Below are positions 59,389 to 64,000 of a stretch of 64,000 nt of DNA, in pieces. The position numbers were made by a program, and so were the translations under genes. The DNA is from Myxococcus xanthus (GTDB taxonomy: Bacteria; Myxococcota; Myxococcia; Myxococcales; Myxococcaceae): assembly GCF_900106535.1 (NCBI RefSeq), contig NZ_FNOH01000007.1:124001-188000 (forward strand), written 5' to 3'. Numbering within the stretch: position 1 is the stretch's first letter; the number at the start of each line of letters is the position of its first letter. The notes under the pieces were generated by a model, which was not told the DNA's origin, did no database searches, and worked only from the letters and a program-made list of their open reading frames with translations.

Positions 59389-60051
59389 TCACCCTTGCTG
59401 CGACCGCGCCGCGACGTCCTCGCCGGGCGCCGGAACGAAGGCCGCCTGGGCGCCCGACTCCCGCGCCACGGTGGCCTCCAGCTCACCGATGAAGGCCGCG
59501 AAGAGCCGCTCTTCCAGCGCCAGCGCGGCATCCAGCGTGGCGCCCACGGCGGTGAGGCGCTCGACACACGCATCCTCGATGGTGAGCCGGTGGCTCTGCT
59601 CCTCGGTGACGACGCGCCCCAGCTCCTCGCGCACGGCCGGCTGGCGGGACGCGGCCTTGTAGAGCGGGTACAGCACCATGGCGCGCCGTTCGATGGCCGT
59701 CGTCGTGAGCAGGTAGTGCAGATAGACGTCCGGCGCGCCCGTAAAGGACGTCGCCCAGGTGGCCAGCTCGTGGTCCAGCGCCTGGAAGTAGCGGCCCGCG
59801 GCCTCCGGGCAGAGGAACGTGGTGATTTCCGCGCCGGCGACCTCGGCGGACAGGCGCTTGAAGGCGAAGGCGTGGCGCGTCTCGTCGGCCAGGTGCCCCA
59901 GCACCTCCAGCGTCGGGTGCCGGTCCGCCACGGTGCGCGAAATCTTCCGCGCGCCGATGAACTCCATCAGGGACAGGGTGTGGAGCCAGCGCGCCTCCAT
60001 ATCGGGCGACTGGGCAAGCTGGCGGAGCACGGCCTGGATTCGGTCACGCAT
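59389..60051 (-). CDS. Ferritin-like diiron protein (MiaE/rubrerythrin-type fold)
   Basis: A 220-residue helical protein. Likely iron ligands occur in the helical pattern E...ExxH, twice: TLSLMEFIGARKI, LADETRHAFAFKRL, TAIERRAMVLYPLY and VTEEQSHRLTIED. This fits a ferritin-like four-helix bundle, such as MiaE or other diiron oxygenases. Length is normal for MiaE-type proteins, but specific function is unclear. The start at 60051 (MRDRIQAVLRQL) is preferred. Its stop codon touches the stop of the convergent methyltransferase gene, with no base between. Confidence 0.75.
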   Translation of the reverse strand: MRDRIQAVLRQLAQSPDMEARWLHTLSLMEFIGARKISRTVADRHPTLEVLGHLADETRHAFAFKRLSAEVAGAEITTFLCPEAAGRYFQALDHELATWATSFTGAPDVYLHYLLTTTAIERRAMVLYPLYKAASRQPAVREELGRVVTEEQSHRLTIEDACVERLTAVGATLDAALALEERLFAAFIGELEATVARESGAQAAFVPAPGEDVAARSQQG

Positions 60052-60139
60052 GAGGCCGTCCTCTAGCCCGGCGCCGGGCCCCATTGCGAGCCCGAAGACA
60101 GGCCCGACCCCAGGGAACGGTGTCGGCGGCCCCTTCTGG

Positions 60140-61027
60140 TCAGCTCGCGGCGACGGCTTCAACGGGCTTGCGCGACGTCGCGGAGCTGCCCACGGACGCC
60201 AGGATGATGCAGCCGATGGCCGCCCACTGCACCAGCGACAGCCGCTCATCCAGCAGCAGCAGCCCGGACACGGCGGCCAGCGCCGGCTCCAGGCTCATCA
60301 GGATGCCGAACGTGCGCGTGGGGAGCGCCTTGAGGGCATACATCTCCAACGAGTACGGCAGCGCGCTCGACAGCACGGCCACGCACAGGATGATGGGAAG
60401 CAGCGACACGTCCAGCAGCTTCATGCCGGCGTGCGCGACCCCGAAGGGCATGACGAGCAGCGCCGCGACGCACATCCCCAGCGACGCCGCCGTGCCGCCG
60501 TGGACGGTGCCTCCGGCCCGCTGACCGAAGAGGATGTACAGCGCCCAGCAGGTGGCGGCCACCAGTGCCCAGAAGACGCCCATCCAGTCCAGCGACCGCG
60601 ACGTCTCCGACAGCGGCAGAATCAGCAGGATGCCTGCCACGGCCAGCAGCGCCCACACGAAGTCGAGCGCCCGGCGCGTGGAGAAGATGGCCAGGGCGAG
60701 CGGCCCGGTGAACTCGATGGCGACGGCGATGCCCAGCGGGATGCGCTCCAGCGCCAGGTAGAAGGTCAGGTTCATCCCGCCCAGCGCCGCGCCGTAGATG
60801 GCCACGGCCCGCAAGTCCTTGCGGGTGAGCCGCTGCCGCCAGGGCCGGAACACCGCCGCCAGGATGAGCGCCGCGAAGAACACGCGAAGCGCCGTGGCCC
60901 CCGCCGCGCCCAAGACGGGGAAGACTTGCTTGGCCAGCGAAGCGCCCGTCTGGATGGAGGCCATCGCGACGAGCAACGTCAGGACCGCCACCGTGACCGG
61001 CCCCGGCTTCGTCAAGACTCGAGACAT
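60140..61027 (-). CDS. EamA-family exporter, RhtA-like
   Basis: A 295-residue membrane protein with ten hydrophobic segments in two EamA repeats. The start at 61027 gives MSRVLTKPGPVTVAVLTLLVAMASIQTGASLAKQ, close to the N-terminus of RhtA (threonine/homoserine exporter). Other marks are PLGIAVAIEFTGPLALA and SLEMYALKALPTRTFGILMSLEPALAA, the latter strongly RhtA-like (parts shown). The function is probably amino-acid or related metabolite export. Single-gene unit. Confidence 0.87.
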   Translation of the reverse strand: MSRVLTKPGPVTVAVLTLLVAMASIQTGASLAKQVFPVLGAAGATALRVFFAALILAAVFRPWRQRLTRKDLRAVAIYGAALGGMNLTFYLALERIPLGIAVAIEFTGPLALAIFSTRRALDFVWALLAVAGILLILPLSETSRSLDWMGVFWALVAATCWALYILFGQRAGGTVHGGTAASLGMCVAALLVMPFGVAHAGMKLLDVSLLPIILCVAVLSSALPYSLEMYALKALPTRTFGILMSLEPALAAVSGLLLLDERLSLVQWAAIGCIILASVGSSATSRKPVEAVAAS

Positions 61028-61200
61028 TCCGCGCACCTCTTCCACCGCGCCCTCTGTCCATCCCGTATCACCCGCCTGCCCTGAAGGGTGAAGAGAACAC
61101 GCTGGACAACACTCGCCTGGCCGGGAGTTTGACGGCGCGGGGGCGCCTTCGCTTTGCTCGGGGGTGAAACGACTGTGCCGGGCCCCGGGGGGGAGCCAGC

Positions 61201-61623
61201 ATGACGCCAAGAGTCCGAGAAATCCGGTTCCATCCACTTCGCACGCGACGAGAATGCCCACCGCGCTGGGATGCCCGCACGGGCGCGCTCGCGACGCCGC
61301 GGCCTCGAAACCGCGCGATCAAACCAGCGCACGACGGCTCGCACGGCGACACCGCCCGTGACGACGCGCTGACGGCCTACCTGGCGCGCTGCAATGAGTT
61401 GGGCGCCATGGAGGGCCCGTTGGGTGCGCGCACGCTCACCCCCACGCTGCGGCCCGTGCTGGAGGCCCTCCACCACGTGCTCGCGGGCGGCGAGGTGTCG
61501 GTGCAACTGCTCCAGCGCGGCAACGCGGACATCGTCAACGAACTGAACCTCCGGGCCGAACGCGCCACCGAGGAGTCGTCCAGCCTGGGTACGGCGGGTG
61601 ACATCCTGTCCGCCACCGTATGA
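61201..61623 (+). CDS. Small unrecognised protein, first gene of the 61-64 kb operon
   Basis: A 140-residue protein. The ATG at 61201 follows a very strong GGGGGGAG ribosome site; residues 1-50 are basic and poorly ordered. Residues 55-140 form a compact, mostly helical domain (LTAYLARCNELGAMEGPLG, VLEALHHVLAGGEVSVQLL, VNELNLRAERATEES). No family is recognised. Its stop overlaps the start of the histidine kinase gene by four bases (ATGA), so it is co-translated and likely works with it; a cognate regulator or adaptor is a guess. Confidence 0.55.
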   Translation: MTPRVREIRFHPLRTRRECPPRWDARTGALATPRPRNRAIKPAHDGSHGDTARDDALTAYLARCNELGAMEGPLGARTLTPTLRPVLEALHHVLAGGEVSVQLLQRGNADIVNELNLRAERATEESSSLGTAGDILSATV

Positions 61624-62978
61624 GTCCGCGCTCCGCCGGGCGACAGGCCCTCCTGTCCTCGTTCCGGCGGTGGACGCGCGCCCAGGATGCCGCGGAGGTG
61701 CTGGCCGCCTCGGGCCTGGGCGCGTGGCTCGCGCTCTGTGCCTTCGTGCCGAGCCTGCTGGCCATGACGGCCTGGGCCCCCGGCGCGCGGAGCTTCTTCG
61801 GCATCCACTTCGGCACCGCGCTGCTGTGCGCCGCGCCCATGTTGACCAGCGGCGTCCTGTTCTCGCTCGTCCACCGGCGGCGCCGCCGCATCGAGCCCTG
61901 GGGCTGGGGGTGGCTCATCTTCGGCGTGGCGACGATGCACTTCTTCGTGGCCGCGCTGATGGCCCTGTCGGCGCCGCCAGGGGCCGCCGTCATCGCCTCG
62001 CTGTTCCTCTTCACCACCGCCTTCCATGGCCGGCTGCACCGGGTGACGCCGCGCCAGCCCTTCCTCGCCCTGGGCACCGCGCTGGCCCTGGCGCTGGCCC
62101 TGCCCCTGCGCGGCAGCGACGAACACCTGGCCCTCTTCGGCGTCATCGGACCCGCGGCGCTCACCGCCCAGCTCTATCTGGGGACCTTCGCCGTGCAGCA
62201 TGACCGGGCCCGCGCGGACGCGGAGCGCCTGCGCGCCGCCGTGCACGCGCAACTGCTGGAGCAGCAGGAGCGCGACGTGGGCCGCCTGTCGCAGGCGCTG
62301 TCGGAAATCCTGGGCTACCACCACGACATCGACAACGCGCTCATGGCGGCGGGCAGCGCGGCGGACATGCTGGCCGTGGTGGGCGCGCACCGCCCGGGCC
62401 CCGGCCGCACCGAGTTCGACGACCTGCTCCGGCAGCTCAACGACAACCTGACGCAGATACGGGACATGATGATGGACGCCCGCAACAAGGGGCGGCGCCA
62501 TGCCGGCATGGAGCCGGAGCCCGTGGAGCTGGCGCCGGTGCTGGACTCGGTGCAGGCCAGCGTGGGCCTGCGCTTCCCGGACGTGGACATCCAGGTGGAG
62601 GTGGAGCAGCCCTCCCCGCCCCTGCGCGCCCTGATGCGCGGCGGCGCGCCCACGCTGCGCCGCGTGGTGGAGAACCTGGTGCTCAACGCCTGCGAGGGCA
62701 ACGGCGAGGAAGGCGCCGCGCGGGTCCACATCCATGCGCGCGTGGAGCCGCTCAGCGGGCGCCTGGAGGTCACGATTACAGATGATGGCCCCGGCTTCCC
62801 GCCCGGCCAGCTCAGCCGCCCCGCCGAGGCGCTGTACACCAGCAAGTCCCACGCGACGGGCCTGGGCCTCTACACCAGCGAGTGCCTCCTGCGCGCCAGC
62901 GGCGGCATGCTGCACCGGCGGAACGCGACAGGGGGCGGCGCCGTGCTCCGCATGGTCCTTCCCAGGGAGTACCGATGA
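61620..62978 (+). CDS. Membrane histidine kinase with HDxxN-type phosphoacceptor box
   Basis: A 452-residue protein. About six hydrophobic segments (residues 25-200, such as ALFGVIGPAALTAQLYLGTF) are followed by a cytoplasmic helical region and the box ILGYHHDIDNALMAAGSAAD, a variant of the HisKA H-box resembling HD-N-N types. A HATPase follows: VVENLVLNACEGNG, DDGPGFPPG, ATGLGLYTSECLLRASGG. It should autophosphorylate, but the missing consensus HE-x-(R/K) leaves some doubt. No response regulator is visible. It overlaps the previous gene and the next gene by four bases each. Confidence 0.8.
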   Translation: MSPRSAGRQALLSSFRRWTRAQDAAEVLAASGLGAWLALCAFVPSLLAMTAWAPGARSFFGIHFGTALLCAAPMLTSGVLFSLVHRRRRRIEPWGWGWLIFGVATMHFFVAALMALSAPPGAAVIASLFLFTTAFHGRLHRVTPRQPFLALGTALALALALPLRGSDEHLALFGVIGPAALTAQLYLGTFAVQHDRARADAERLRAAVHAQLLEQQERDVGRLSQALSEILGYHHDIDNALMAAGSAADMLAVVGAHRPGPGRTEFDDLLRQLNDNLTQIRDMMMDARNKGRRHAGMEPEPVELAPVLDSVQASVGLRFPDVDIQVEVEQPSPPLRALMRGGAPTLRRVVENLVLNACEGNGEEGAARVHIHARVEPLSGRLEVTITDDGPGFPPGQLSRPAEALYTSKSHATGLGLYTSECLLRASGGMLHRRNATGGGAVLRMVLPREYR

Positions 62979-63712
62979 GCGGCGGAGCCCTGTACCAGGA
63001 GTCGCTGCGCGCGCTTCGCCGGCTGGGCTTGCCGGAGGTGTCGGAGCGGGACGTGCTCGCGGCGCTGGAGGCGGCGCAGCCCGGCCCCCTGTCCCTCTTC
63101 TACGAGGCGGGCGCGGAGGCCGGTCTGCCGCGCGAGGCCCTGATGGCGCGCGGCGCCGGGCTCTTCCTCAGCTTCAGCGCGGGCAACCTCGCCGACGACC
63201 TCATCGACGGTGAGTGCACGTACCACGACCCACCCATCCGCGTGGGGCCGTGCGTGCAGTTCATCCTCCAGAACCTGGCCTTCGCCACGCTGTGCGGCGC
63301 GCCGGCGCAACTGCCGGGCACGGTGCTGGAAGAGGCGGTCCGCACCCTGGCGGTGGCCGCCGGCCCGCAGGCGCTGGAGGTGCGCGCCAGCGACTGGACG
63401 GCGCCGTTGTTCCGCCAGGTCGCGGAGGGCATCGCCGGCCAGCAGTGGGCCGCGTACCTGCGCGTGTTGTGGGCGGGCACGGTGCTGGAGCCCCGCGCGG
63501 CGGCGGCGGGCCGGGCACTGGGCGTGGCCGCGCACGTGGCGGAGGACATCCGCACGCGGGACGTGCGCTTCACCAGCATGCCCGGGGCGGACCGTCACGC
63601 GGTGGTGGCCTGGGCGCGCGCCGCCGCGCAGGCGCTGCGCCGACTGGACCTGCGCTGCCTGGACGCGGCGCTGCGCCGCATCGAACCGATGCTGCCAGAG
63701 GGGGAGTCATGA
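62975..63712 (+). CDS. Isoprenoid-synthase-like protein (polyprenyl synthetase fold), degenerate motifs
   Basis: A 245-residue, all-helical protein. NLADDLIDGE contains a DDxxD (Asp74, Asp75, Asp78) like the first Asp-rich motif of class I prenyl synthases, and HVAEDIRTRD (Glu190-Asp196) sits where the second motif DDxxD occurs. The spacing (about 115 residues) fits the fold. It is shorter than true polyprenyl diphosphate synthases (about 300) and the second motif is altered, so it could bind, rather than make, prenyl diphosphates. Co-translated with the kinase before and the methyltransferase after (ATGA overlaps). Confidence 0.6.
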   Translation: MSGGALYQESLRALRRLGLPEVSERDVLAALEAAQPGPLSLFYEAGAEAGLPREALMARGAGLFLSFSAGNLADDLIDGECTYHDPPIRVGPCVQFILQNLAFATLCGAPAQLPGTVLEEAVRTLAVAAGPQALEVRASDWTAPLFRQVAEGIAGQQWAAYLRVLWAGTVLEPRAAAAGRALGVAAHVAEDIRTRDVRFTSMPGADRHAVVAWARAAAQALRRLDLRCLDAALRRIEPMLPEGES

Positions 63713-64000
63713 ACGCCGAAGCCGTGCAACCCGAGTGGAGACGCGACGAGGTGAGCGCGTACTACGAGGCGAAGACGGAGCGGCTGCTCCAACGCTATGG
63801 GCCCGGCCCACGCGTGCACTATCACTCCGGGCTGGTGGACGTGGTGCCGCCGCCCGGCGCGTCCTCGGAGGTGCTGCGCGACACGGTCCATTCCGCGCAG
63901 GAAGCGCTGCTGATGGAGCTGGCGCGCGCCGTGGGCCGCTTCCCGGACGGCGGCGAGGTGGTGGACGTCGGCTGTGGCCTGGGCGGCGGCGCGCTCTACT
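63709..64000 (+). CDS. SAM-dependent methyltransferase, partial (cut by the window end)
   Basis: The first 97 residues of a class I methyltransferase. The N-terminus has YYEAKTERLLQRYGPGPRVHYHSGL, and motif I begins at the edge (VVDVGCGLGGGALY). The start overlaps the previous stop by four bases. This N-terminal pattern occurs in methyltransferases located beside terpenoid genes, so methylation of a prenyl diphosphate or terpenoid is possible but not shown. The rest of the protein lies beyond 64000. Confidence 0.8.
   Translation, partial: MNAEAVQPEWRRDEVSAYYEAKTERLLQRYGPGPRVHYHSGLVDVVPPPGASSEVLRDTVHSAQEALLMELARAVGRFPDGGEVVDVGCGLGGGALY

Follow-up and report, generated by a model that had tools for sequence, protein, structure and literature searches.

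A compact Myxococcus gene set with an unusual methylated terpene-like compound as its probable product

To judge from the sequences of its enzymes, a compact gene set common to all the Myxococcus genomes sampled probably directs the synthesis of an unusual, methylated molecule of terpene-like type. Terpenes with added methyl groups depart from the isoprene rule. In the Myxococcus set a stripped-down isoprenyl diphosphate synthase takes the position of the cyclase, and the set occurs in each genome of the Myxococcus sample, a strain labelled M. xanthus among them. The combination of a stripped IPP-synthase fold in place of a class I cyclase with a kinase encoded in the same operon is a new variant, and literature searches among open-access PMC papers turned up no account of the cassette, of C6-methyltransferases in Myxococcus or of a linked kinase. 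If the proposed reading is true, the cassette would offer a new terpenoid and a new route from synthase to cyclase-like enzyme, as well as the unusual case of a histidine kinase tied genetically to two biosynthetic enzymes even as it loses its phosphorelay residues. Such a gene set suggests that a much-studied group of social bacteria has a product and a type of terpene enzyme that are both new.

The operon in the window

The window, which is the whole stretch of 64,000 nucleotides that was analysed, covers positions 124001-188000 of contig C7 in a 9.26 Mb genome of the genus Myxococcus (G000), and the named genomes closest to it are Myxococcus strains as well. Calling of open reading frames in the window and its flank gave four genes in series on the plus strand, which are referred to here as SMALL, HK, PREN and MT:

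61201-61623, plus strand: SMALL, 140 aa, conserved core from about residue 53 (position 61357), no known family
61620-62978, plus strand: HK, 452 aa, histidine-kinase-like protein with six TM segments, HATPase_c domain at residues 344-449 (Pfam E 1e-16)
62322-62324, plus strand: codon of His235 in HK, the presumed phosphoacceptor, present in the protein of the window
62975-63712, plus strand: PREN, 245 aa, trans-isoprenyl-diphosphate-synthase fold without the IPP-binding residues
63194-63208, plus strand: first Asp-rich motif of PREN, DDLID (residues 74-78), from the orthologue alignment
63542-63556, plus strand: second Asp-rich motif of PREN, altered to EDIRT (residues 190-194), from the alignment
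63709-64000, plus strand: first 97 codons of MT, a SAM methyltransferase of the C6-FPP-MT/BezA family

The complete MT has 293 aa, and its stop lies past the window at C7 188590, equivalent to window position 64590 (L009:3710-4591). As described in a first-pass annotation of this DNA, each gene overlaps the next by ATGA at all three junctions, and these overlaps recur in other genomes, namely in 55/58, 71/72 and 61/67 loci across the three junctions (redundant loci included). An overlap of 4 nt is by itself common in bacteria, and the real evidence for the association of these genes is their comparative linkage rather than the overlaps. Since dN/dS values between Myxococcus relatives range from 0.18 to 0.47 for all four genes, the whole set is real and under constraint.

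The prospect of further enzymes past position 64000, also raised in that annotation, came to nothing: the 14 kb that follow MT showed no additional enzyme gene belonging to the unit. An operon extending downstream with more enzymes was rejected, as a lipoprotein gene and SbcD/SbcC-like genes come next. The lipoprotein gene (L009:4740-5070, C7 188739-189069) starts 149 nt after MT, has its own Shine-Dalgarno sequence and encodes a small Gly-rich protein with the lipobox ITGC; similar lipoproteins follow MT in several related genera, including the eroded MT of the genus g26. Upstream of the operon, the minus strand carries two divergent genes (window 59389-60249 and 60246-61061). One encodes a transporter of EamA-like type and the other a helical protein, possibly of a diiron or heme-oxygenase-like type, and the pair of genes is syntenic in some relatives. 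Scans for promoters and terminators gave nothing above chance, a result to be read with the reservation that a sigma-70 consensus need not fit myxobacterial promoters, and a search of a plasmid collection returned no match.

The methyltransferase and its synthase-fold partner

The fourth protein had been recognised early on as a SAM methyltransferase, and it can now be placed in the family of terpene-diphosphate C6-methyltransferases. Its closest solved relative is the farnesyl-diphosphate C6-methyltransferase SvaMT of Streptomyces varsoviensis (PDB 9TB4; 273 aligned residues, 40% of them identical, E 1.4e-55). Second comes BezA (PDB 7FBH; E 6e-52), which methylates geranyl diphosphate at C6 in benzastatin biosynthesis, and no other structure scores better than 4e-15. 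Over its full length, MT is nearer in homology to these two enzymes than to any other solved methyltransferase. SvaMT and BezA share 39% mutual identity, and the mechanism comes from SvaMT, whose residues, including the catalytic Glu165, were probed by mutation (PMC12929941). This glutamate corresponds to E155 in MT and is kept in 35/37 aligned orthologues, and the Phe243-Trp244 pair of SvaMT corresponds to F233-W234, kept in all 35 rows that cover it. Three other positions of SvaMT, His194, Ile205 and Tyr209, have been replaced near-uniformly across the MT clade by Cys, Phe and Trp. In SvaMT, His194 is hydrogen-bonded to the catalytic Glu and is essential (PMC12929941). The same position is Cys184 throughout the MT clade and Val in BezA and, because BezA lacks the histidine too, Cys184 sets MT apart from the FPP-specific enzyme but not from the family.

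With BezA, MT also shares a tyrosine at the position of Tyr47, and it differs from it in pathway context and in the Trp210 gate. This tryptophan controls substrate size in BezA, where the W210A change opens the enzyme to FPP (PMC10881772). In our reading of the alignment, Trp210 would fall on the Ile205 position of SvaMT, which is Phe in MT. With the pocket residues replaced and the Trp gate exchanged for Phe, the chain length of the MT substrate is not readable. That MT methylates a prenyl diphosphate is very probable on homology grounds, and a C6-methylated prenyl diphosphate is the likely intermediate given the identity of MT to SvaMT and its relationship to BezA.

In the bacterial C6-methylation pathways known so far, methyltransferase and class I cyclase go together, as is the case for the SvaMT-type methylation and the cyclases of the kantenol, jaegerol and marxdiol pathways (PMC12929941, PMC12723460). 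In S. varsoviensis, as in the Myxococcus operon, the methyltransferase gene adjoins a gene for a terpenoid-fold protein (PMC12929941, PMC12723460). The two systems differ in the pocket residues of the methyltransferase, in the presence of SMALL and HK inside the Myxococcus operon and, above all, in the partner itself, which is an isoprenyl-diphosphate-synthase-fold protein without any curated-family match instead of a canonical class I cyclase.

Neither Pfam nor NCBIfam has a family that matches PREN, and the only hit of a profile search of the PDB was a GGPP synthase at chance level (E 0.87), which made a fold comparison necessary. An AF2 model built from a 22-sequence alignment (mean pLDDT 91.6) was used, and the PDB matches listed for this confident model are isoprenyl diphosphate synthases that align over about 235 residues, with a best Z of 23.5 and with none of the top 50 at 21 or below. 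The earlier description of a prenyl-synthase-like third protein is upheld by this fold, even though the family databases are blind to it. When PREN was aligned by profile to canonical polyprenyl synthases encoded in the same family of bacteria, the first DDxxD (D74, D75 and D78) aligned exactly with the synthases, and it is kept in 45/47 orthologue rows. The second Asp-rich motif, already seen to be altered at first pass, reads EDIRT/S where canonical synthases have DDIRD. Among the aligned diphosphate contacts, the Arg-Arg that follows DDxxD has become Tyr-His and the Lys-Thr has become Ile-Ala; at the place of KRxRP, which an ungapped upstream extension of the alignment reaches, QPGPL replaces KRARP. 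Compared with FPP and GGPP synthases, PREN has kept the whole fold (Z of about 23) and the first metal motif, and has lost every IPP-binding residue checked.

Prenyl chain elongation by PREN was rejected in view of this missing IPP site. Such a residue pattern should allow at best the binding of metal and of an allylic diphosphate, with no addition of IPP, and PREN is probably a cyclase-like partner rather than a chain elongator. By eye, no clear NSE/DTE motif was found in the PREN alignment, in which DDxxD is present. With its second DDxxD and its RR and KT contacts gone, and with no recognised NSE/DTE-like motif, PREN could be inactive; a catalytic, cyclase-like role is rated somewhat better than an even chance. 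To our knowledge, the IDS-like terpene synthases of fungi and insects have no methyltransferase partner. These eukaryotic enzymes are terpene synthases derived from the IPP-synthase fold (PMC7484799), and they are set beside PREN by analogy.

The two enzymes of the operon are also coupled through their histories. Two separate PREN-MT gene fusions have occurred, one encoding 522 aa (L046/L065) and the other 523 aa (L094), and erosion affects the partners in parallel. In Citreicoccus, the DDxxD of PREN is changed, motif I of MT has gone from GCGLGGG to GCVRGGS, and the accompanying DyP-type peroxidase has changes in its GxxDG motif and in the presumed heme-binding His. In genus g26, where PREN is absent, MT keeps Glu155 and the Phe-Trp pair, motif I has become GSVLGG in 3/5 loci, and erosion has also reached the YGPGPRVHYH segment and the YWRT pocket, a state that represents either decay or a new function. 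The retained catalytic residues of one enzyme track those of the other, the pattern that would be expected of consecutive steps.

The presumed sensor module and the distribution of the cassette

The six-helix kinase with an HDxxN box reported at first pass was confirmed in both respects, with six TM segments by hydropathy (residues 33-188) and HDIDN at residues 235-239. Its HATPase_c domain, its intact N and G ATP boxes and its HDxxN box liken HK to two-component histidine kinases with a PrsK/AtoS-type kinase domain, from which it differs by an operon of biosynthetic genes and by the loss of the phospho-His and of the receiver Asp in several lineages. His235 is replaced by Gln or Glu in 10/44 aligned orthologues (the g15/g16 genera and some Myxococcus), is Gln in the Myxococcus genome G147 and likewise Gln in 3/5 g26 loci, its loss having occurred in at least three lineages. 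Without this residue in several lineages, ordinary phosphotransfer is not the conserved function everywhere and, because the membrane and ATP-binding domains remain in every kinase, we propose ATP-dependent control or anchoring.

The lack of a visible response regulator, pointed out in the first-pass annotation, holds for Myxococcus, where none adjoins the operon and no receiver homologue was found in the genomes searched, but not for Archangium, whose cassette includes a receiver. These Archangium receivers have Ala at the phospho-Asp site and keep the acidic pocket and the Lys. A phospho-Asp receiver linked to SMALL-HK was found only in G156, at a locus devoid of PREN and with a weak receiver similarity (E 0.002). 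This SMALL-HK-receiver unit (L116:7545-10301), which has neither PREN nor MT, possibly represents the ancestral two-component form. Its existence suggests that the sensor module was once independent, and the whole pattern suggests an ancestral phosphorelay that joined PREN-MT and then lost part of its phosphotransfer chemistry.

In SMALL, some 90 residues make up a conserved core, and the stretch N-terminal to it is peculiar to the M. xanthus clade. It has no family in Pfam or NCBIfam, no match in the PDB and a poor AF2 model (pLDDT 57.5). A role as RiPP precursor was rejected, the core being conserved along its length.

Across the phylum, PREN occurs in 48/195 genomes, SMALL in 45/193 and MT in 56/193, counts that come from related genomes and are not independent events. 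All 27 Myxococcus genomes sampled carry PREN and MT, and 26 carry SMALL, the exception being G147, with an in-frame deletion of the conserved centre of SMALL. SMALL is nearly always accompanied by PREN, with G156 as the sole genome in which it is not. A wider survey of 297 genomes from the phylum of G195 yielded only G195 itself.

The first-pass annotation had made its reading depend on linkage of the genes in other genomes, and linked they are, in several arrangements. The genus names used for these loci were assigned by matching to named ones. The order SMALL-HK-PREN-MT is that of Myxococcus, Pyxidicoccus, Hyalangium and relatives, and the order in Archangium is DyP-receiver-SMALL-HK-PREN. 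The DyP-type peroxidase and the phospho-Asp-less receiver head the cassette at L043:5650-6893, L042, L045, L059 and L060 (Archangium and relatives), and no close C6-methyltransferase was found in the genomes with this arrangement. Citreicoccus has DyP-PREN-MT, one MAG has a fused PREN-MT followed by DyP-SMALL-HK, and G157, from another family of the order, combines SMALL-HK with a fused PREN-MT. The SMALL-HK-PREN of G160 has a lower GC content than its neighbouring genes. Genus g26, probably Corallococcus, retains at the syntenic site (L118-L122) an HK-MT pair without SMALL or PREN. SMALL-PREN-MT or SMALL-PREN are found in three environmental genomes labelled Deltaproteobacteria or, very probably in error, Klebsiella. 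Two public records with the cassette are labelled Comamonas sp. KCTC 72670 (L052) and Klebsiella pneumoniae MAG (L064); L052 resembles a Myxococcus genome and L064 resembles the unclassified environmental genome L063, and both labels are probably wrong.

Proposed function and alternative explanations

We favour, at slightly better than even odds, a homoterpenoid biosynthetic unit with an attached and partly degenerate sensor module. MT would use SAM to methylate a prenyl diphosphate, either GPP or FPP, at C6, and the resulting diphosphate would carry the new methyl group and a shifted double bond. PREN, which has lost its hold on IPP and kept the Mg-binding first DDxxD, would ionise this diphosphate and then rearrange, cyclise or hydrolyse it, occupying the place of the class I terpene cyclase in the known C6-methylation pathways. 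The six-TM HK and SMALL would together be the membrane-bound sensor part of the unit and would control or anchor the enzymes, with control through an ATP-dependent conformational change at least in those lineages without the phospho-His. In Archangium, the DyP-type peroxidase is found in place of the methyltransferase and, since PREN is kept there without any close MT, PREN need not use a methylated substrate. Of the two options offered at first pass, a lipid-derived signal made and sensed by the same unit or a regulated methylated-isoprenoid product, the latter is the better one, supported by the conserved unit and by the family of MT. Against the homoterpenoid unit speak the possible inactivity of PREN, the PREN of Archangium that lacks a close MT, the retention of HK-MT without PREN in g26 and an MT pocket unlike those of both solved enzymes. 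A bolder version, which we regard as improbable, would make PREN a new bacterial terpene synthase family, derived from isoprenyl diphosphate synthases and using C6-methylated prenyl diphosphates, within a membrane-tethered complex whose histidine-kinase-like subunit swapped phosphotransfer for ATP-driven control of the enzyme pair, possibly gated by the product.

Plant GPP synthases have small subunits that provide a parallel for a non-catalytic accessory role, and PREN might likewise steer a housekeeping prenyl synthase to supply GPP or FPP to MT, with genes elsewhere encoding the enzymes that complete the methylated product. PREN has lost most of the cationic contacts that the synthase makes with its substrate, the mint GPP synthase heterotetramer is among the equal structural matches listed, and the PREN-MT fusions would fit substrate channelling as well. 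We nevertheless hold this explanation to be rather unlikely, as the first DDxxD is lost only alongside erosion of the partner enzyme, which suggests a catalytic metal site. Still less probable is a unit devoted chiefly to signalling, in which the kinase reads an isoprenoid ligand made or bound by PREN and MT and signals to a distant regulator. Almost every lineage has HK and SMALL coupled to PREN, and the G156 unit looks like a working two-component system; however, the repeated replacement of the phospho-His, the Archangium receivers without phospho-Asp and the lack of receiver homologues in the Myxococcus genomes searched are at odds with it, and no HK gene was found near PREN in three environmental genomes and Citreicoccus. 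That the genes are mere neighbours with unrelated functions, kept together by common ancestry of the chromosome region, is very unlikely. Flanking genes are indeed syntenic in the family too, and short overlaps of this kind are widespread, but the genes also stay together in a second family of the order and in distant environmental genomes where other genes flank them, and they show changes of gene order, fusions and correlated loss.
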